Source of the DNA: Clostridia bacterium
GTDB taxonomy: Bacteria > Bacillota > Clostridia > Oscillospirales > Acutalibacteraceae
Assembly (NCBI GenBank): GCA_017521925.1
Contig: JAFXBG010000019.1
Span: 1 to 42,713 of the forward strand
DNA length: 42,713 bases
Direction of reading: 5' to 3'
Below are positions 18,425 to 25,584 of the stretch, piece after piece (position 1 is the first letter of the stretch; every line of letters begins with the position of its first letter). Below the pieces are notes generated by a model. The model was not told the origin of the DNA, ran no database searches, and saw nothing but the letters and a program-made list of their open reading frames with translations. The translations under genes and the position numbers were made by a program.

Positions 18425-19972
18425 TTAGTCTTCAAGGCTGGTTTTTGCTTTAACCGTAACGGTTTTCTCATAACAGGCAAATTTTGCGTTTACAGCATCC
18501 TCGTCAGGCTTCTTGGTAAGTAAGCTTATAACAATTACAAGCACAATACCCATAAGCATTGCAATAACGCCTACATTTGAAGATGCCTGCAAAAGCTTGG
18601 GAAGAACAGTAATATTGCCCGAAAGCTTTAAAGCCATAAAGGTTACATTAATAAGCACACTGAAAATAAAACTTGACCAGACTGCAGGCTTTGTGGCACG
18701 CTTCCAATAAAGACCAAGCATAAAGGGGCCAAGGAAAGCACCGCTCATTGTACCCCAGGAAATACCCATAAGGTCGGTAATAAATGCAACCTTTGAGTTA
18801 GCCTGAATAATTGCAATACCTGCGGAAACCACAATAAAGAAAACAATAAATAAACGCATCCAACGCATCTTGCTTTTTTCAGACATCTTGTCTTTTCTGA
18901 CAGGATTCAAAAAGTCAAGGGTAAGAGTTGAGCTTGAGGTAAGCACCAGACTTGAAAGTGTAGACATAGAAGCCGCAAGCACAAGCATAATTACAAGTGC
19001 GATAACTACGTCTGAAAGCTGTGAAAGCATAGCAGGAATAATCGAGTCAAAGCCGTTTTCAGCTACCTGCTCAGGTGTCATAAAGAGTCTGCCGAAACCG
19101 CCCAGGAAATAACAACCGCCTGCAACAATAACAGCAAAAACCGTGGAAACAACAGTGCCTGTTTTAATAGCTTTTTCGTCCTTAATGGCATAGAACTTAC
19201 CAATCATCTGAGGAAGTCCCCAGGTGCCAAGGGATGTAAGAAGCACAACACCGATAAGTGCCAATGGGTCAGGGCCGAAGAAGGAGGTAAAACCGCCCTC
19301 TGAAACCGTGTCGGTAGTAACCTTCGAAAGAAGGTTTACGCTTTCAGCAAAGCCACCGTTTACATTAAGCACCGAAAACACAACCACAACAATACCCACA
19401 AGCATAATTACGCCCTGCACCGCACTGTTTAAGGCTGTGCCCATATAACCTGAAAGCACAACGTACATTGCAGTAACCAAAGCCATAACAACAACGCAAA
19501 CCCAGTAAGGAATGTTAAAGCTCATCTCAAAAAGACGGGAAAGACCATTGTAAAGAGATGCTGTGTAAGGAATCATAAAGATAAACACAATGGCGGAAGC
19601 CACTATCTTAAGAGACTTGCTGTCATATCTTTTCTCAAAAAAGTCGGGCATCGTAGCACTCTGAAGATGCTGAGTCATAACCCTTGTACGTCTTCCTAAA
19701 ATTTTCCAGGCAAGGTAAGAGCCGATTAAAGCATTACCAAGACCAATCCACGTAGAGGCTAAACCGAAGTTCCAACCGAACTGACCTGCATAGCCTACAA
19801 AAATAACGGCAGAAAAATAAGATGTACCAAAGGAAAACGCCGTAAGCCAAGGTCCGACTGCTCTTCCGCCCAGTACAAATCCGTTTACATCCGTTGCTTT
19901 TTTTCTGGAGTATACACCGATACCGATAGTAATTACCAGAAAAAGCAGGATAAACAGGATTTTGATTACCAT
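18425..19972 (-). CDS. Sodium:solute symporter (SSS family)
   Basis: The 515-aa integral membrane protein has about 13 helices and the SSS family pattern. It begins with ILFILLFLVITIGIGVYSRK, then FVLGGRAVGPWLTAFSFGTS and FSAVIFVGYAG, and includes GLPQMIGKFYAIKDEKAIKT and LAASMSTLSSLVLTSSSTL, which holds sodium-site serines and threonines. It is the first gene of the ior-paaK operon, so an aryl acid such as phenylacetate or indoleacetate is a good candidate substrate; relatives carry proline, pantothenate or carboxylates. The ribosome binding site is weak. The divergent promoter region carries an inverted repeat. Confidence 0.9.
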   Translation of the reverse strand: MVIKILFILLFLVITIGIGVYSRKKATDVNGFVLGGRAVGPWLTAFSFGTSYFSAVIFVGYAGQFGWNFGLASTWIGLGNALIGSYLAWKILGRRTRVMTQHLQSATMPDFFEKRYDSKSLKIVASAIVFIFMIPYTASLYNGLSRLFEMSFNIPYWVCVVVMALVTAMYVVLSGYMGTALNSAVQGVIMLVGIVVVVFSVLNVNGGFAESVNLLSKVTTDTVSEGGFTSFFGPDPLALIGVVLLTSLGTWGLPQMIGKFYAIKDEKAIKTGTVVSTVFAVIVAGGCYFLGGFGRLFMTPEQVAENGFDSIIPAMLSQLSDVVIALVIMLVLAASMSTLSSLVLTSSSTLTLDFLNPVRKDKMSEKSKMRWMRLFIVFFIVVSAGIAIIQANSKVAFITDLMGISWGTMSGAFLGPFMLGLYWKRATKPAVWSSFIFSVLINVTFMALKLSGNITVLPKLLQASSNVGVIAMLMGIVLVIVISLLTKKPDEDAVNAKFACYEKTVTVKAKTSLED

Positions 19973-20033
19973 AAATATCCACTTCTTTCAAAAAATTGCA
20001 AAAAATACCGCATTTTCATAAAAATGATATTTT

Positions 20034-20062
20034 ATTATACCAAAATTAAACTATGAGTACAA
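20034..20062 (-). promoter_or_regulatory. Promoter of the symporter-iorAB-paaK operon
   Basis: TTGTAC (20062-20057), a 17-bp spacer and TATAAT (20039-20034) lie on the minus strand, about 60 bp before the symporter start codon. Confidence 0.75.
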
Positions 20063-20064
20063 GT

Positions 20065-20101
20065 ATTTTTGCAGGATTTATCCTATAATTTTGCAAAAAA
20101 T
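20065..20101. promoter_or_regulatory. Inverted repeat in the symporter/met intergenic region
   Basis: ATTTTTGCA (from 20065) is mirrored by TGCAAAAAAT (to 20101), and the inner part holds the palindrome AGGATTTATCCT. A further copy of TTGCAAAAAAT lies at 19996-20006, between the symporter promoter and its start codon. This is a candidate operator just upstream of the symporter -35 and 30-65 bp upstream of the met -35. No regulator can be named. Confidence 0.4.
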
Positions 20102-20131
20102 GCACTGTAAATCCTTTCCTTTTAAAAAAAG

Positions 20132-20160
20132 TTGACATAGATTGCAAGTTGGTTTATAAT
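20132..20160 (+). promoter_or_regulatory. Consensus promoter of the met leader and metYA
   Basis: TTGACA (20132-20137), exactly 17 bp, and TATAAT (20155-20160) match the sigma-70/SigA consensus at all twelve positions. Such a strong promoter suits control by downstream attenuation. The transcript should begin near 20167. Confidence 0.92.
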
Positions 20161-20189
20161 GGGCTTAAGTTTTACAGGAGGACATTTTT

Positions 20190-20249
20190 ATGAAAAGTTT
20201 ATACGTAAACTACAATATGATGATGTGCACCTGTGCCTTCAAAAACTGA
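20190..20249 (+). CDS. Leader peptide with Met-Met-Met-Cys-Thr-Cys, met operon
   Basis: A 19-residue open frame, MKSLYVNYNMMMCTCAFKN, has an excellent ribosome binding site (AGGAGG at 20176-20181, spacing 8) and begins about 23 nt after the predicted transcription start. Residues 10-15 are three Met codons, Cys, Thr, Cys. A terminator begins about 32 nt after its stop codon, and the first structural genes make methionine. The layout is that of amino-acid attenuator peptides such as trpL or hisL. Ribosome slowing at Met or Cys codons would be read out by RNA folding. The frame is certain; translation and function are inferred. Confidence 0.8.
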   Translation: MKSLYVNYNMMMCTCAFKN

Positions 20250-20312
20250 TTGAATCTTTTTGGTTTTATCTGATTTTTGAGGGCAGATACCCATTTGGGT
20301 TTCTGCCTTTTC
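20236..20312 (+). promoter_or_regulatory. Attenuator region: alternative pairings and terminator of the met leader
   Basis: The terminator hairpin is GGCAGAtACCC/GGGTtTCTGCC (20282-20292 with 20297-20307), loop ATTT, followed by TTTTCTTATTT. Two competing helices use its 5' arm. TATCTG (20267-20272) pairs with CAGATA (20284-20289). CCTTCAAAAA (20236-20245, inside the leader peptide just after the Met/Cys codons) pairs with TTTTTGAGGG (20274-20283) as 10 bp with one G-U. The second segment would be exposed or covered according to where the ribosome stands. These pairings were found by eye and not energy-minimised. No S-box or T-box signature is seen in this leader. Confidence 0.72.
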
Positions 20313-20341
20313 TTATTTAATTTTCAAGGAGGAAGATACTT

Positions 20342-21625
20342 ATGAAGAATTTCAGTATCGACACCAAATGCGTTCAGGGCGGTTACACCCCCTCAAACGG
20401 TGAACCACGCCAGATTCCCATTGTACAAAGTACTACATTTAAATATGCAACGAGCGAAGCAATGGGAAAGCTTTTTGACTTAGAGGCTGAGGGCTATTTT
20501 TACACAAGACTTCAGAACCCCACCAACGACACAGTTGCAAAGAAAATTTGCGAGCTTGAAGGCGGCAGTGCCGCTATGCTTACCTCCTCAGGTCAGGCGG
20601 CAAGCTTCTTCAGCGTTTTCAACATTGCCTCTGCAGGAGACCACGTTGTAGCATCTTCTGCAATTTACGGCGGCACATATAATCTTTTTGCAGTTACAAT
20701 GAAGCGAATGGGTATTGACTTTACCTTCGTTGCTCCCGACTGCTCAGAGGAAGAGCTTAATGCTGCTTTCAAGCCTAACACAAAGGCACTTTTCGGCGAA
20801 ACTATCGCAAATCCTGCTCTTGTGGTTCTTGATATTGAAAAATTCGCAAATGCTGCACACAGCCACGGTGTTCCCCTTATTATCGACAACACCTTTGCAA
20901 CACCTGTTAACTGCCGTCCTATTGAATGGGGTGCTGACATTGTTATCCACTCCACAACAAAATATATCGACGGACACGGTGTTTCTGTCGGCGGATGTAT
21001 TGTTGACTCAGGTAATTTTGACTGGACAAAATATCCCGACAAATTCCCCGGTCTTTGTACTCCTGACGAAAGCTATCACGGCGTAACATATACAGAAAGA
21101 TTCGGTCTTGCAGGTGCATATATCACAAAGGCTACCGCTCAGTTAATGAGAGATTTTGGATGTATCCAGTCGCCTCAGCACGCTTTCTACATCAATATGG
21201 GTCTTGAGAGCCTTCACGTAAGAATGCGTCAGCACTGTGCAAACGGTCTTGCTGTTGCAACATATCTTAAGAACCACCCCAAGGTAGCCTGGGTACGTTT
21301 CCCCCATTTAGAAGGCGACGACAGCTTTGAGCTTGCTAAGAAGTATATGCCTCAGGGCGGTTGCGGTGTTGTTTCTTTCGGTGTTAAGGGCGGAAGAGCT
21401 GCTGCAGAAACATTTATGAAAAATCTTAAGATTGCCGCTATTGAAACCCACGTTGCAGATGCCCGCACCTGTTGCCTGCACCCTGCAAGTGCTACTCACA
21501 GACAAATGAACGACGATGAGCTTGCGGCTGCAGGTATTTCTCCTGATTTAGTTCGCTTCTCATGCGGTATTGAAGGTGCTGACGACCTTATTGCAGACAT
21601 CGAAAACGCATTATCACAAATCTGA
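20342..21625 (+). CDS. metY: O-acetylhomoserine sulfhydrylase / aminocarboxypropyltransferase
   Basis: The 427-aa PLP enzyme of the Cys/Met metabolism family makes homocysteine from O-acetylhomoserine and sulfide, or methionine with methanethiol. Landmarks are the [16 protein letters not shown] motif, SSGQAA for phosphate binding, DNTFATP with the PLP-ring Asp, and the Schiff-base lysine K207 in [11 protein letters not shown]. The extra insertions and length of about 430 fit MetY rather than the shorter MetB/MetC (about 380). AAGGAGG lies 9-10 nt before the ATG. It is 17 bp ahead of metA, whose product supplies its substrate. Confidence 0.96.
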
Positions 21626-21642
21626 TTTCAGGAGGTGTTTTA

Positions 21643-22569
21643 ATGCCAATTAAAATCCCTAACGAGCTTCCTGCTACAAAAACGTTATATGAAGAAAACA
21701 TCTTTGCCATTACGGAAACAAGAGCCCTGACTCAGGATATCCGTCCTTTGCAGATTGTTGTTCTTAACTTAATGCCCACAAAGATTGAAACCGAAACCCA
21801 GCTTGCCAGACTCCTGGGAAACACTCCCTTGCAGGTTGATTTGGAGCTTATCCACACAGCTACTCACAAGTCAAAGAATGTGGACTCTGACCACCTTTTA
21901 AGCTTTTACAAAACCTTTGACGAAATCAAACACCGCAAGTTTGACGGTATGATTATCACAGGTGCACCTGTTGAGCATCTTGAGTTTGAGGATGTGGAGT
22001 ACTGGGATGAGCTTTGTGAGATTATGGAGTGGACAAAAACCAACGTAACCTCTACTTTTCACATTTGCTGGGGTGCTCAGGCAGGTCTTTATTACCACTA
22101 CGGTATTAAAAAGTACCCCCTGGATAAAAAGCTTTTCGGTATTTTCAAGCATACACTCGATTACAAGCGTTCTATGCTTTTCAGAGGTTCTGACGATGAA
22201 TTCTGGGTTCCTCAGTCGCGTCACACTACTGTAAAGCGTGAGGATATTGAGAATGTTCCTGAGCTTAAAATTCTTTCTTCTTCCGAAGAAACAGGGGTGT
22301 ATGCCATTGCTACCGATAAAGGCAGACAGATTTTCATTACAGGCCATTCAGAGTATGACAGAGATACTCTTAAAAAAGAGTATTTAAGGGATAAAAACTT
22401 AGGCAAGCCTATCGAGCTTCCTAAAAACTACTTCCCCGACGACGACGACACAAAGGACCCCATTATAAAGTGGCGTAGCCACTCAAGCCTCTTGTACTCC
22501 AACTGGCTCAACTACTTTGTGTATCAGACAACTCCATACAACATCAATGAAATTAAATCTATAAAATAA
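21643..22569 (+). CDS. metA: Homoserine O-acetyltransferase, MetA family
   Basis: The 308-aa protein belongs to the MetA (HTS) family, which transfers an acyl group to homoserine at the entry to methionine synthesis. The nucleophile is C142 in [15 protein letters not shown]; the catalytic His and Glu lie in [10 protein letters not shown]. Residue 111 is Glu (TGAPVE). In this family Glu at 111 marks acetyl-CoA use while Gly, as in the E. coli enzyme, marks succinyl-CoA. Acetyl specificity agrees with the neighbouring MetY. AGGAGGTG precedes the start. It is the last gene of the met unit and is followed by a terminator. Confidence 0.95.
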
Positions 22570-22573
22570 GCAA

Positions 22574-22611
22574 ACCGCCTTACCTTTATGCTCGGGTAAG
22601 GCGGTATTTTT
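22574..22611 (+). terminator. metYA terminator
   Basis: The perfect 11-bp stem ACCGCCTTACC/GGTAAGGCGGT (22574-22584 with 22595-22605), with a 10-nt loop, is followed by ATTTTTTATTT on the plus strand. In the other orientation it lies just past the LuxR-type gene but has a poor U-run. Confidence 0.92.
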
Positions 22612-23774
22612 TATTTAAGCAGGAAACGTCCCAACTCTTCTCGGTTAGAAACATCCAGTTTTTCGTAAATTACCGACAGGTGGTGCTTGACCATTCGGGG
22701 TGAAATATCCATATGCTGAGAAATTTCTTTAACCGACCAGTTTCGGTTAAACAGCATAGCAATGGCAAACTCAGTGGTAGTAAGACTAATTGTAACAGAA
22801 CTTTTTGTAAGCTCGTTGTGAACCGTGCTCCAGCCTGTGCTGAAATTCTTAACCATAGCCACTATCTCGCGATATGCTTCGGGGTGGGTTTTCTTTATCT
22901 GAGATTCAATTATTCCCTGCAACAGCCCGTGATGCTCTGCAAAGGGCTGAAAAATCTCTTCCTCCAGAGCAATGCGGTTAATATCATTGAAAGCTGACTT
23001 TGCTCTCTGAGAATCCTTAAGATTCATAAGACATACACACCGCATAAGTTTTAAGTAAAGGGAGGGCACAGGATAAGGCGCACCCTTAAACGTAAGTACT
23101 CCCTCTGCAATACCCACAGCACGGCTATAATCCTTTTCAAGGTAAACCTTGTGAGCCATAATATAGGACGCAAACACCCTAAGCCCTGCGGGTAAGTCGT
23201 TCATTACCGTCTGCAAAGGCGGAAGCTCATCTGTATCCTGATGCAAAAGCACCAACGTTGCCGTGCCGATAAATACGGCACTTGCCCTGAAATCAGGGTC
23301 ATCCTTACTCAAAGCTTTCATAACAAAACGCTTTATATTTTCAAATCCCAACTCTGTCAGATTAAGCTTGCCTGAGCTTAAATTTGCAAAGGCGTAAATA
23401 AAGCTTGCCGAAAGAGCTGTATTATAGTCCGCGTGATTAAGGTAAAGCTCGGCAATCTCTATTGCCTGCTGAGTTTTGCCTTTGTAGTAATACAATTCTG
23501 CGGTTGCAATCGCCTTATCCGTCTCATCTGCAAGACCTGCAATCATATCATTGCAATAACCCGGCACAAAGTCATTTGATAAAACAGGCAAAAGCTGATG
23601 AACAGTGGTTTTTTCATCACAAGAATTGTTATCAGGGGTTGCATTTTGCGGGATAAGCCATTCTCTGCCCAGCTTTTTTGCACCATTGAATTTGTTTTCT
23701 TTTGCCCATTTCTGCACAGTTCGGATGTTAACACCAAGACGAACTGCCGTTTCCTTGGCAGACTCAAATTCCAC
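22611..23774 (-). CDS. LuxR-type transcriptional regulator with an additional N-terminal HTH
   Basis: The 387-aa protein has DNA-binding motifs at both ends. Residues 1-45 look like an excisionase/MerR-type helix-turn-helix (SAKETAVRLGVNIRTVQKWA; LGREWLIP). Residues of about 70-300 form a helical, TPR-like region (AIATAELYYYKGKTQQAIEI; AVGIAEGVL). Residues of about 325-387 are a LuxR/GerE HTH (LTTTEFAIAMLF; SVKEISQHMDISPRMVKHHL; KLDVSNREEL). No receiver or autoinducer domain is seen. The start is a GTG with GGGAGGG 6-7 nt upstream. It lies just downstream of the amylase/maltodextrin operon with its own promoter, so control of that operon is plausible but unproven. Confidence 0.85.
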   Translation of the reverse strand: MEFESAKETAVRLGVNIRTVQKWAKENKFNGAKKLGREWLIPQNATPDNNSCDEKTTVHQLLPVLSNDFVPGYCNDMIAGLADETDKAIATAELYYYKGKTQQAIEIAELYLNHADYNTALSASFIYAFANLSSGKLNLTELGFENIKRFVMKALSKDDPDFRASAVFIGTATLVLLHQDTDELPPLQTVMNDLPAGLRVFASYIMAHKVYLEKDYSRAVGIAEGVLTFKGAPYPVPSLYLKLMRCVCLMNLKDSQRAKSAFNDINRIALEEEIFQPFAEHHGLLQGIIESQIKKTHPEAYREIVAMVKNFSTGWSTVHNELTKSSVTISLTTTEFAIAMLFNRNWSVKEISQHMDISPRMVKHHLSVIYEKLDVSNREELGRFLLK

Positions 23775-23804
23775 AGTACTCCCTCCCCACTACTTTATAA
23801 ATCA

Positions 23805-23833
23805 ATTATATTCCCGCAAAAATTAAAATGCAA
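23805..23833 (-). promoter_or_regulatory. Promoter of the LuxR-type regulator
   Basis: TTGCAT (23833-23828), a 17-bp spacer and TATAAT (23810-23805) lie on the minus strand, about 30 bp before the GTG start and just past the amylase terminator. Confidence 0.72.
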
Positions 23834-23846
23834 GATTTTATTTATA

Positions 23847-23877
23847 GCAAAAAACGCTTCCTCAAAAGGAAGCGTTT
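23847..23877 (-). terminator. Amylase terminator
   Basis: The perfect stem AAACGCTTCCT/AGGAAGCGTTT (23852-23862 with 23867-23877), with a 4-nt loop, is followed by TTTTTT on the minus strand. Confidence 0.92.
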
Positions 23878-23883
23878 AAGGCT

Positions 23884-25584
23884 TTATTTAGAGCTTTTCA
23901 GAACCACAGAGCTTCTGGGGGGAAGCACAAGCTTGCTGTTTGTAATATATGCAAACTCAGGAAGCTCTTCCTCTGTTGCAGGCTGAGTTTCGCCTCTTAC
24001 AGCAGGGGTTTTGCTTACTTCATCAGCACCTGCGTAAAGGTCGCCGACAATTTCAGCATCCTTAAGCATATCGTCAGTAATCTCGATTTCAGAGGCCTTT
24101 GCGCCGTTTACATTATGAACAATAATAACTGCACTGTCATCATATTCAATCTTAAAAGCACAAATGCCGATATCACCCTCAACTTCATATGTTTCTGTAA
24201 TTCTGCCACGGGCAATTTCAGGGTTCTGGCCTTTGATTTTAAGGGCTCTCTTGTAGAAATTCAGGAGAGAGTTCTCGTCCTCAGTCTGCTGTTTTACACC
24301 GCCGAAATCAAGCTCGCAAAAAGCATCGGCAGTACACCAGATGTCAGGCTCTACATCTGAATCCCAAATCATGGGAGAACGGAAGAACGCATCATTCTGA
24401 TGGTAGTTACCGGGAGTCTTCATACCGATTTCTTCGCCATAGTAGGTAAAGGAGTTACCCGGTGTAAGGATATAAAGAGCCGCAGCGTTCTTCATAACGT
24501 TAACACCCTTGCTGAAATATGAACCGCTTCGAACCTGGTCGTGGTTAGAAAGGAACATAGCATTGATTACATCGGGATTAGCTTCTCTGGAACCTCTATC
24601 AAACTTTTCAAGCTGAGTAACAAGGCTATCGCCGTCGCCTGAGTTTGCAGTAATGGCAAAGTTACCTGTAGAACCTGCAAAAGAGAATGCAAACTGGCTA
24701 TCGATGCCTGACTCGTAGATATCATAAAGATAGGAATTACTCTGCCAGTTTTCGCCTACCATATAAACATCAGGGTTATATTTCTGAGCAGTGTCATAGA
24801 ACCAACCCAGGAACTCTGCACCGTCGGTAGTTTCATCTGTCATATACTTAACCGCGTCAAGTCTGAATCCTGCAACACCGCGTTCAAGCCAGAACTTTGC
24901 GATTTCTTCAAAATAATCTCTTGTACCGTCATAGGCTAAGTTCCACTCGGGCATTTCTGTAGAAAACTGACCCTCGTACCAAACACCGGATGCACCGATT
25001 ACCTGACGCCATCCTTCGCCGGGGCTTGCAAAGCCTGAAGCCTGAAAACGGTAATATTTTGCAAAACCGTCAAGGTTACCGTCTGCAACTTCCTTAAGGG
25101 CTTTCTGATAAAACTCATGGCCTGTACCGCAATGGTTAAGCACCAGGTCAAGAATAACATCAATACCGCGTTTGTCGCACTCTTCAATAAGCTTGTCGAA
25201 GGTAGCAAGGTCGCCAAATTCGGGGTCGATGTCCATATAATCGTCAACATCATATTTATGATAAGAATCCGAAGGCATAATGGGAGACAGCCATATGCCT
25301 GTCATACCAAGGTCCGTATCGGTTTCAGGATTTCCGTCGTTAATGTAGTCAAGGTTGTCAATAATACCCTGTAAGTCGCCTGTTTCATCATTGTTGCTGT
25401 CAGCAAAAGCACAAACCCAGATGTGATAATAGTTGCGGTATTTGTCATCAATATCTGCAACTTTTCTTTCTGCTACGGGGTCCTTGTATTCTGTGGGGAT
25501 TTCTTCGGTTTTTTCACAACCTGCAAAAACCACACAGGAAAGGGAAAGTGCAATTATAAGAAATAAAGCTATAATTTTTTTCAT
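23884..25584 (-). CDS. Alpha-amylase family (GH13) lipoprotein
   Basis: The 566-aa precursor has a lipoprotein signal with C23 in VVFAGC, so the enzyme is probably tethered outside the cell. The GH13 barrel begins near residue 53 (YHIWVCAFADSNND). It shows all conserved regions: DLVLNH (146-151), nucleophile D243 in GFRLDAVKY, acid/base E278 in VGENW, and D349 in FLSNHDQ. A beta-sandwich C-terminal domain follows (about 470-566). Members hydrolyse alpha-1,4-glucans such as starch or maltodextrin. It lies behind the importer genes after an intra-operon terminator, so hydrolysis products would feed that transporter. AAGGTG precedes the start. Confidence 0.95.
   Translation of the reverse strand: MKKIIALFLIIALSLSCVVFAGCEKTEEIPTEYKDPVAERKVADIDDKYRNYYHIWVCAFADSNNDETGDLQGIIDNLDYINDGNPETDTDLGMTGIWLSPIMPSDSYHKYDVDDYMDIDPEFGDLATFDKLIEECDKRGIDVILDLVLNHCGTGHEFYQKALKEVADGNLDGFAKYYRFQASGFASPGEGWRQVIGASGVWYEGQFSTEMPEWNLAYDGTRDYFEEIAKFWLERGVAGFRLDAVKYMTDETTDGAEFLGWFYDTAQKYNPDVYMVGENWQSNSYLYDIYESGIDSQFAFSFAGSTGNFAITANSGDGDSLVTQLEKFDRGSREANPDVINAMFLSNHDQVRSGSYFSKGVNVMKNAAALYILTPGNSFTYYGEEIGMKTPGNYHQNDAFFRSPMIWDSDVEPDIWCTADAFCELDFGGVKQQTEDENSLLNFYKRALKIKGQNPEIARGRITETYEVEGDIGICAFKIEYDDSAVIIVHNVNGAKASEIEITDDMLKDAEIVGDLYAGADEVSKTPAVRGETQPATEEELPEFAYITNSKLVLPPRSSVVLKSSK

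Follow-up and report, generated by a model that had tools for sequence, protein, structure and literature searches.

How does a bacterium of the Clostridia adjust the expression of a methionine operon that lies behind neither an S-box nor a T-box? In Firmicutes, methionine genes are controlled by the S-box (SAM-I), the Met T-box, or the MET-box/MtaR repressor. Leader-peptide attenuation is also long known, and is classical in the enteric trp, his, leu, thr, phe, and ilv operons. The question is raised by the DNA preceding metY-metA in a 42,713-nucleotide contig of a gut Clostridia bacterium, the whole of which is called the window here. A sequence-only reading had proposed a Met/Cys leader peptide and attenuator controlling metYA, and had noticed no S-box or T-box. 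The Rfam search agrees, as at gathering thresholds it finds neither element in the leader. The SAM-I model (RF00162) has no match in the window, and the only Rfam match there is a T-box on the minus strand (62-305, 100.9 bits), whose gene is not on the contig but past its end. Six sub-threshold Rfam matches around the leader are taken as chance, for instance L20_leader with 22.5 bits where 58.7 are required. The leader and its operon consist of the following parts:

20132..20160, plus strand: sigma-70 type promoter, TTGACA-17 nt-TATAAT, matching the consensus at 12 of 12 positions.
20176..20181, plus strand: ribosome-binding site AGGAGG of the leader ORF, from sequence; a Shine-Dalgarno (SD)-like match is present in 10 of 10 window-type leaders.
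20190..20249, plus strand: leader peptide ORF of 19 codons, translated as MKSLYVNYNMMMCTCAFKN* and kept in nine further metY loci.
20217..20225, plus strand: putative control codons Met10-Met11-Met12, a Met run present in 10 of 10 window-type leaders and the place of the modelled stall.
20234..20245, plus strand: antiterminator 5' arm TGCCTTCAAAAA in a 12-bp helix, running from the third base of the Cys15 codon to within Asn19.
20274..20285, plus strand: antiterminator 3' arm TTTTTGAGGGCA of the same 12-bp helix, with 7 nt in common with the terminator 5' arm.
20279..20310, plus strand: predicted intrinsic terminator hairpin, dG -20.0 kcal/mol, with a T-rich tail to about 20319.
20342..21625, plus strand: metY, O-acetylhomoserine aminocarboxypropyltransferase/cysteine synthase (TIGR01326, 558.1 bits, cut-off 495.1).
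21643..22569, plus strand: metA, homoserine O-acetyltransferase (NF047918 MetA_acetyl, 501.3 bits, cut-off 460.5).
22574..22605, plus strand: terminator-like hairpin 3' of metA, a 12-pair stem with 7 GC followed by a T run, the likely end of the operon.

Every leader element described in the sequence-only reading is thus confirmed in the sequence: the perfect consensus promoter, the strong ribosome-binding site with its 19-codon Met-Met-Met-Cys-Thr-Cys frame, the terminator followed by metY-metA (both genes identified by NCBIfam matches), and the competing pairing that reaches back into the peptide-coding region. Judging by its two genes, the operon makes methionine precursors. Nine promoter-like sites were found in a scan of 19000-24500, where shuffled sequence yields 9.1 of any score; the one at 20132-20160 is the sole site to score 12/12, and on the plus strand of this interval there is no second promoter with at least 10 of 12 matches. 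The leader terminator was missed by a simple consensus scan and found by folding. Folding of the 175-nt leader gives -50 kcal/mol, where shuffled versions average -32.4 (z -4.65) and none of 200 does as well, so the folding check that had been suggested comes out in favor of a structured leader. In its minimum-energy fold, CCUGU just before the antiterminator arm pairs with part of the ribosome site. In this model, that is the arrangement expected against read-through if translation does not start. When 20,000 random 330-nt segments are searched for a comparable ORF (10-45 codons, starting at an ATG behind an SD, with four or more internal Met+Cys), 174 of them (0.9%) hold one. Because of this low random rate and of its recurrence at the same place in relatives, the leader ORF exceeds chance.

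That recurrence is seen among 110 metY loci, taken from two sets of 30 and 80 contigs with some loci common to both; many of the 80 contigs are gut MAGs of Clostridia, Ruminococcus, or Oscillospiraceae. A leader of the window's type precedes metY in 10 of the 110 loci, including the window's own (L002), and hence in 9 of the 109 others (L032-L035, L037, L039-L041, and L050). Both promoter hexamers are recognizable by eye in all ten, and the SD-like match, also found in all ten, was a precondition of the ORF scan behind that count. The peptides read MKSLY[VL]NYNMMMCTCAFKN in L002 and L032-L035, MYANYEKTHMMMCSSAFKSHR in L037, MYINYEKTHMMMCNSAFRNH in L039, MYINYEKTHMMMCGSAFRSH in L040, MYTNFKTIYMMCRSAFRSITE in L041, and MYATLKNTYMMMRRSAFKNT in L050. 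While their N-termini vary (KSLYVNYN, YINYEKTH, YATLKNTY), the Met run, the Ala-Phe, and the pairing are constant. The run is MMM in nine of the ten leaders and MM in L041, and Ala-Phe-Lys/Arg is conserved 3' of it. The sequence-only reading had asked whether relatives keep these features, and the nine do: start codon, SD, ORF, Met run, terminator, and the antiterminator pairing that competes with it. The five closest sequences also drift like coding DNA, their codon differences falling 6/0/12 on positions 1/2/3, with 12 synonymous versus 6 nonsynonymous (pairwise sums). The pattern is less clear in L037, L039, and L040 (positions 4/8/13, 11 synonymous versus 9 nonsynonymous, again as pairwise sums).

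The leader is present in eight of the ten named loci with the most similar MetY (L032-L041), and its ORF is missing from the other two (L036 and L038). About 70 nt upstream of metY, these two keep a perfect promoter and a terminator-like hairpin, the Met leader being absent, and about 10 nt past the -10 box an ATG is followed by Phe-Cys or Cys-Leu-Cys codons, possibly a leaderless mini-ORF. Within the genus, 3 of the 13 metY loci fetched have a leader of this type; these copies (in G821, G815, and G805) look the same as L033, L041, and L050, and for that reason are not counted as new. Among the ten other loci of the genus, one was not placed and one has no upstream sequence. In the reading of 19 loci, the script left five unplaced (L274, then read by eye, and L279, L280, L281, and L284), and L289 has no upstream sequence. 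A covariance model, R1, matches 27 of 398 family genomes at E<=0.01; of the 31 matches listed, 18 cover part of the model, for the most part the end with the terminator, and none of the five other genomes of the genus has a full-length match. A two-strand scan of 30 fetched loci finds ORFs with at least three internal Met in the window leader, in G269, and in L130. The L130 ORF (G259) was not taken as a leader in view of its LTG start. The 14 minus-strand loci in the set of 30 metY contigs show no Met leader. A Met/Cys score of at least 4 is reached in 11 of 96 plus-strand metY loci: eight of the window's type, L089, and two (L082 and L108) that were not taken as leaders. True cases also escape this score, with L041, L050, and L091 falling below 4.

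At the RNA level, the Ala-Phe codons GCCUUC (20235-20240) pair with GAGGGC in the terminator 5' arm. On an attenuator reading this pairing at the terminator foot explains why the GCCUUC core is invariant in all ten leaders. Across these ten, 97.3% of the cells in the antiterminator helix are paired, versus 31.5-76.2% when one partner is slid along the other, and the terminator helix reaches 97.7%. Nine of the 11 pairs in the antiterminator are the same in every leader, and the observed covariation values are attained by 148 of 500 shuffles. With so little variation, covariation speaks neither for nor against the pairings. Of the alignment check proposed earlier, the conservation of the Met codons stands and covariation finds no support.

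The switch was modelled with a codon in the ribosomal A-site and the RNA free from 12 nt past the codon's first base, a 12-nt ribosome footprint. The read-out is the probability that the 7 nt at the start of the terminator 5' arm are paired with upstream sequence in the nascent RNA. In the window, this modelled engagement is 0.99 at Met10, 0.99 at Met11, and 0.86 at Met12, then falls to 0.28 at Cys13 and 0.11 at Thr14. The same model gives 0.86 at Met10-Met12 and 0.28 at codon 13 in L037, L040, and L050. With a +15 footprint, the step comes one codon earlier, between Met11 and Met12, and the antiterminator is free at Met10-Met11. As the modelled step falls at the Met codons, the run appears to be placed just where a stall would free the antiterminator. 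In all four window-type leaders scanned codon by codon, the antiterminator is exclusive, free at the control codons, and masked at the stop. The window leader leaves a residue in the model, its terminator arm staying about 0.5 paired from Phe17 to the stop (0.50 at the stop itself) in a weak fold of -5.4 to -4.5 kcal/mol. In all seven window-type leaders computed, the nascent fold has -18.3 to -28.5 kcal/mol in the stalled state versus -2.5 to -5.0 at the stop, and the terminator dG is -19.5 to -22.5. For the full-length RNA of the same seven at equilibrium, the mean probability of the terminator pairs is 0.70-0.89 stalled and 0.92-0.98 at the stop, so that the terminator is the favored fold in every ribosome state. 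Given how modest this shift is, the switch must be kinetic, working through cotranscriptional folding, which other attenuators need too. The parts of the leader, their conservation, the two mutually exclusive pairings, and the codon at which masking sets in within the model are direct results of sequence and computation.

From these we infer that the promoter is used, that the ORF is translated, that ribosomes stall and transcription reads through, and that the signal is the charging of Met-tRNA and not some other cause of a stall. It is very probable that a classical ribosome-mediated transcription attenuator, sensing charged Met-tRNA, controls metYA; the nine relatives and the modelled switch at the Met codons both support the Met-codon leader peptide and attenuator first proposed from the window. 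RNA polymerase would start past the 20132-20160 promoter, and a ribosome would translate the 19-codon leader. When Met-tRNA is plentiful, the ribosome would reach the stop codon and cover GCCUUC, allowing the 20279-20310 terminator to form and transcription to end. When Met-tRNA is short, the ribosome would stall at Met10-Met12, leaving GCCUUCAAAAA free. This segment would then pair with UUUUUGAGGGC, taking the terminator 5' arm, and metY-metA would be transcribed. Methionine is a special case for attenuation, as its shortage should also slow initiation. By folding, an untranslated leader is mostly in the terminator form (0.61 in the window, 0.88-0.97 in six relatives).

Comparable leaders stand before other genes. 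Taking a MetN protein of the same order as query, 87 genomes of that protein's family, a different one from the window's, were searched; 47 matched, the best 30 loci were fetched, and of the weaker matches G737 alone was read. The query's best NCBIfam model is MetN, with 353 bits, below the 499.7 cut-off, and its NIL domain is above the Pfam cut-off. Leader ORFs such as MLSIRMDMCMMCGFARFSAMQR precede metN in 25 of these best 30 loci. Of these, 24 score at least 4 Met+Cys (0.87% of random segments do), and the last (L260) was found by a separate reading. The 25 are not independent, since 23 of the 30 loci belong to one genus (22 of the 23 with a leader); L265 comes from a second genus, and L269 and L270 from a third. 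The five loci without a leader are L244 (with just 100 nt upstream), L266, L271, L267, and L268. In L266 and L271, both of this family, the metN homologue is preceded by a T-box instead of a Met/Cys leader, while upstream of metN in L267 and L268 the tests run find neither leader ORF nor T-box; by eye, L267 looks T-box-like. In the metN leaders, the Ala-Arg-Phe-Ser codons GCUCGUUUUUC find their partner, GGAAAACGAGC, at the foot of the terminator. This pairing holds in 97.9% of cells over 19 distinct rows and in 55-65% when slid; no two-sided changes are seen in those rows, and covariation does not surpass its shuffle control. Modelled engagement in L223 is 0.93-0.99 up to Met10, 0.27 at Cys12, and 0.77 at Gly13, then falls again, so that this switch, like that of L240, is non-monotonic along the ORF in the nascent-RNA model. 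Among four genomes with a window-type leader, a NIL-domain MetN is found in G805 alone, and no Met leader is seen by eye upstream of it.

Pattern searches extend the list. The pattern AGGAG..ATG..ATGATGATG matches in 112 of 398 family genomes. Among 45 matches picked by eye and frame-tested, 35 places besides the window are in frame; 27 were fetched, and ten are ORFs of at most 60 codons. Five of these ten precede metG, metG (both of one genus), cysK, metY, and metY, and the other five short Met-run ORFs are not before sulfur-amino-acid genes. The metG leaders are MKRAFVCNSMMMRTRT... and MNKTLKCGSMMMCTRT... (L173 and L174), the cysK leader is MNSTFSNRNRMMMCNVSCFCMMRTCACSCRC (L176), and the further metY leaders, of unlike sequence, are those of L191 (MNAVSLKNKDMMMCGMMMCHAYFCFR), L181, L089, and L091; the genes downstream in L173 and L091 are named by likeness, not by profile. 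The pattern GGAG..ATG..ATGATGTGY matches in at least 273 of 394 genomes of the order, many matches looking like what we take to be copper-chaperone GMMCxxC starts. The 19 places picked by eye among the matches listed comprise nine leaders before metN (the gene in L226 being recognized by likeness only), one other short ORF, and nine longer genes. A class-wide pattern, ..ATGATGATGTGY, matches in 11 of 381 genomes and, judging from the matched letters only, none of the matches is leader-like except the window's own. The terminators of all these other leaders were found by script or by eye, those of L174 and L240 being chosen by eye. Their antiterminators differ in clarity. That of L191 is clear in the model (0.87-0.95 at the Met codons, 0.19 at the stop), and loss of the antiterminator at the stop is plausible in the modelled L089, L091, and L240. 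L173 forms an 11-bp antiterminator helix that in the model does not discriminate stall from stop; folding gives weak or unclear antiterminators in L174, L176, L181, and L269; and in L230 an 8-bp pairing lies 3' of the stop codon and persists with a ribosome there. Within the loci examined, a second Met/Cys leader was seen in none of the genomes. We would give an even chance to the broader proposal that Met/Cys leader attenuators are spread over one Clostridia order and control, each in different genomes, methionine synthesis (metYA), import (metN), tRNA charging (metG), and cysteine synthesis (cysK). They would stand in for T-boxes and S-boxes one gene at a time, with unlike sequences that apparently arose repeatedly and a Met:Cys codon mix tuned to the gene. 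It is from the unlike sequences, and not from a tree, that the origins appear to be independent.

What else might the leader sense? The sequence-only reading had suggested that its Cys codons also report on sulfur supply, and this suggestion finds no support for the window leader, where both lie past the masking codon (modelled engagement 0.28 at Cys13 and 0.16 at Cys15) and are not conserved: in L050 an Arg follows the Met run, and the place of Cys15 is taken by Ser in five of the ten leaders (L037, L039, L040, L050, and, at the aligned position given its one Met fewer, L041). A dual sensor, in which a shortage of Cys-tRNA would also relieve metYA attenuation through the adjacent Cys codons, is therefore unlikely, even though Cys adjoins Met in most of the leaders listed; such adjacency was itself required by the GGAG..ATG..ATGATGTGY and class-wide patterns, and not by the AGGAG pattern or the MetN search. 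Sensing of Cys is possible for the metN and cysK leaders. In the metN leader of L223, Cys9 lies inside the sensing zone (0.93-0.95 antiterminator engagement), and the cysK leader of L176 has, counted by eye, 7 Cys against 5 internal Met.

The stall could also have a cause other than tRNA, the nascent chain itself sensing SAM or methionine and arresting the ribosome without any tRNA shortage, as TnaC does as an arrest peptide for tryptophan. Any stall at codons 10-12 would work in the model, and the conserved Ala-Phe-Lys/Arg after the Met run could be read in this way, but RNA pairing already accounts for GCCUUC, the upstream residues expected in the exit tunnel differ among subgroups, and the same codons recur in different peptides before metN, metG, and other metY genes, all of which makes an arrest peptide very unlikely. 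An RNA that binds a ligand or a protein, a new riboswitch with an incidental ORF, would suit the strong leader structure (z -4.65) and the helix adjoining the SD. Against it stand the lack of any Rfam match at gathering thresholds, an antiterminator loop variable in length and sequence, the coding-type drift in the ORF, and the recurrence of the design with unlike RNA sequence, and we consider it highly improbable. Finally, the ORF might encode a small protein with a function of its own, the terminator behind it being an ordinary one and metYA being expressed by read-through or from another promoter. Short Met/Cys peptides could bind metals, which makes such a role conceivable, and half of the ten short in-frame Met-run ORFs are not before sulfur-amino-acid genes. 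Yet the antiterminator arm lies inside the ORF, the modelled switch falls at its Met codons, and 19000-24500 offers no other strong plus-strand promoter, so this explanation is scarcely credible.

An attenuator reading Met-tRNA would act beside a sensor of SAM. In the window's genome (1.4 Mb, 72.6% complete), a single SAM-I was found, before metK (G000:C12:32910-33005, L298); as read from sequence, metK-like proteins also lie behind the SAM-I sites in G821 and in G815 and behind one of the two in G805. This coexistence of SAM-I on metK with the metYA leader suggests that methionine and SAM supply are sensed separately; the cell may thus monitor SAM and Met-tRNA apart. Other elements were seen near metY in relatives. 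In 5 of 20 scanned relatives (L044 and L046-L049), a SAM-I lies at about 1600-1730, some 1.3 kb upstream of metY, and four of these five have FMN riboswitches near 700-925. Upstream of metY in L062, L076, L092, L098, L101, and L104, the sequence is T-box-like by eye, with a GGTACCGCGG core.

Set against known systems, the leader shares with the enteric attenuators a promoter, an SD, a short ORF holding several cognate codons in a row, a terminator, and an antiterminator that a stall at these codons frees and a ribosome at the stop masks. It differs from them in its amino acid, methionine, and in its host, a member of the Clostridia, the likeness drawn here being one of design. The S-box, Met T-box, and MtaR also regulate Firmicutes methionine genes, but through an RNA that senses SAM or uncharged tRNA, or through a DNA-binding protein. 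Attenuation for methionine had been expected to be new in this group, and a search of open-licence papers indeed found no methionine leader-peptide attenuator for Firmicutes. The mechanism is not wholly without precedent there, as leader-peptide attenuation by predicted His leader peptides replaces the T-box before Bacillus hisS/hisZ; those leaders concern histidine, tRNA synthetase genes, and Bacilli (passages of PMC2965389). In Mycobacterium and other Actinobacteria, Cys leader peptides are short ORFs of sulfur-amino-acid codons before the cys operons, here with Cys runs; the relevant passages of that source report no conserved terminator hairpins for them, and no conserved RNA structures upstream of actinobacterial methionine operons (PMC1262725). 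The nearest published case found is the leader peptide metL (MSTTSDRTPATEATTTPGARCMCRRMCAF), predicted before metNIQ in Streptomyces lividans TK24 (PMC8079986). According to the portions of that paper dealing with it, metL likewise mixes Met and Cys and precedes a methionine transporter, but it is actinobacterial and leaderless and misses a typical Rho-independent terminator; these portions describe no antiterminator (PMC8079986). The window leader, unlike metL, has an SD, a 5' UTR (by the position of its promoter), and a terminator. The metL peptide ends in CMCRRMCAF (PMC8079986). Its resemblance to the window's MMMCTCAF is a likely coincidence or convergence.

What is new here is apparently the use of a known mechanism with a Met-codon sensor, in Clostridia, exchanged with T-boxes and, as the sequences suggest, of several origins. 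Such a leader-peptide sensor would read the supply of Met-tRNA to translating ribosomes, apart from SAM. It raises the question of how a Met leader works if methionine shortage hits both initiation and elongation. Leader ORFs of the Met/Cys kind could be sought in gut metagenomes, and the metN homologues of one family, some behind a T-box and others behind a leader peptide, would provide a natural series for following the evolution of RNA regulators.
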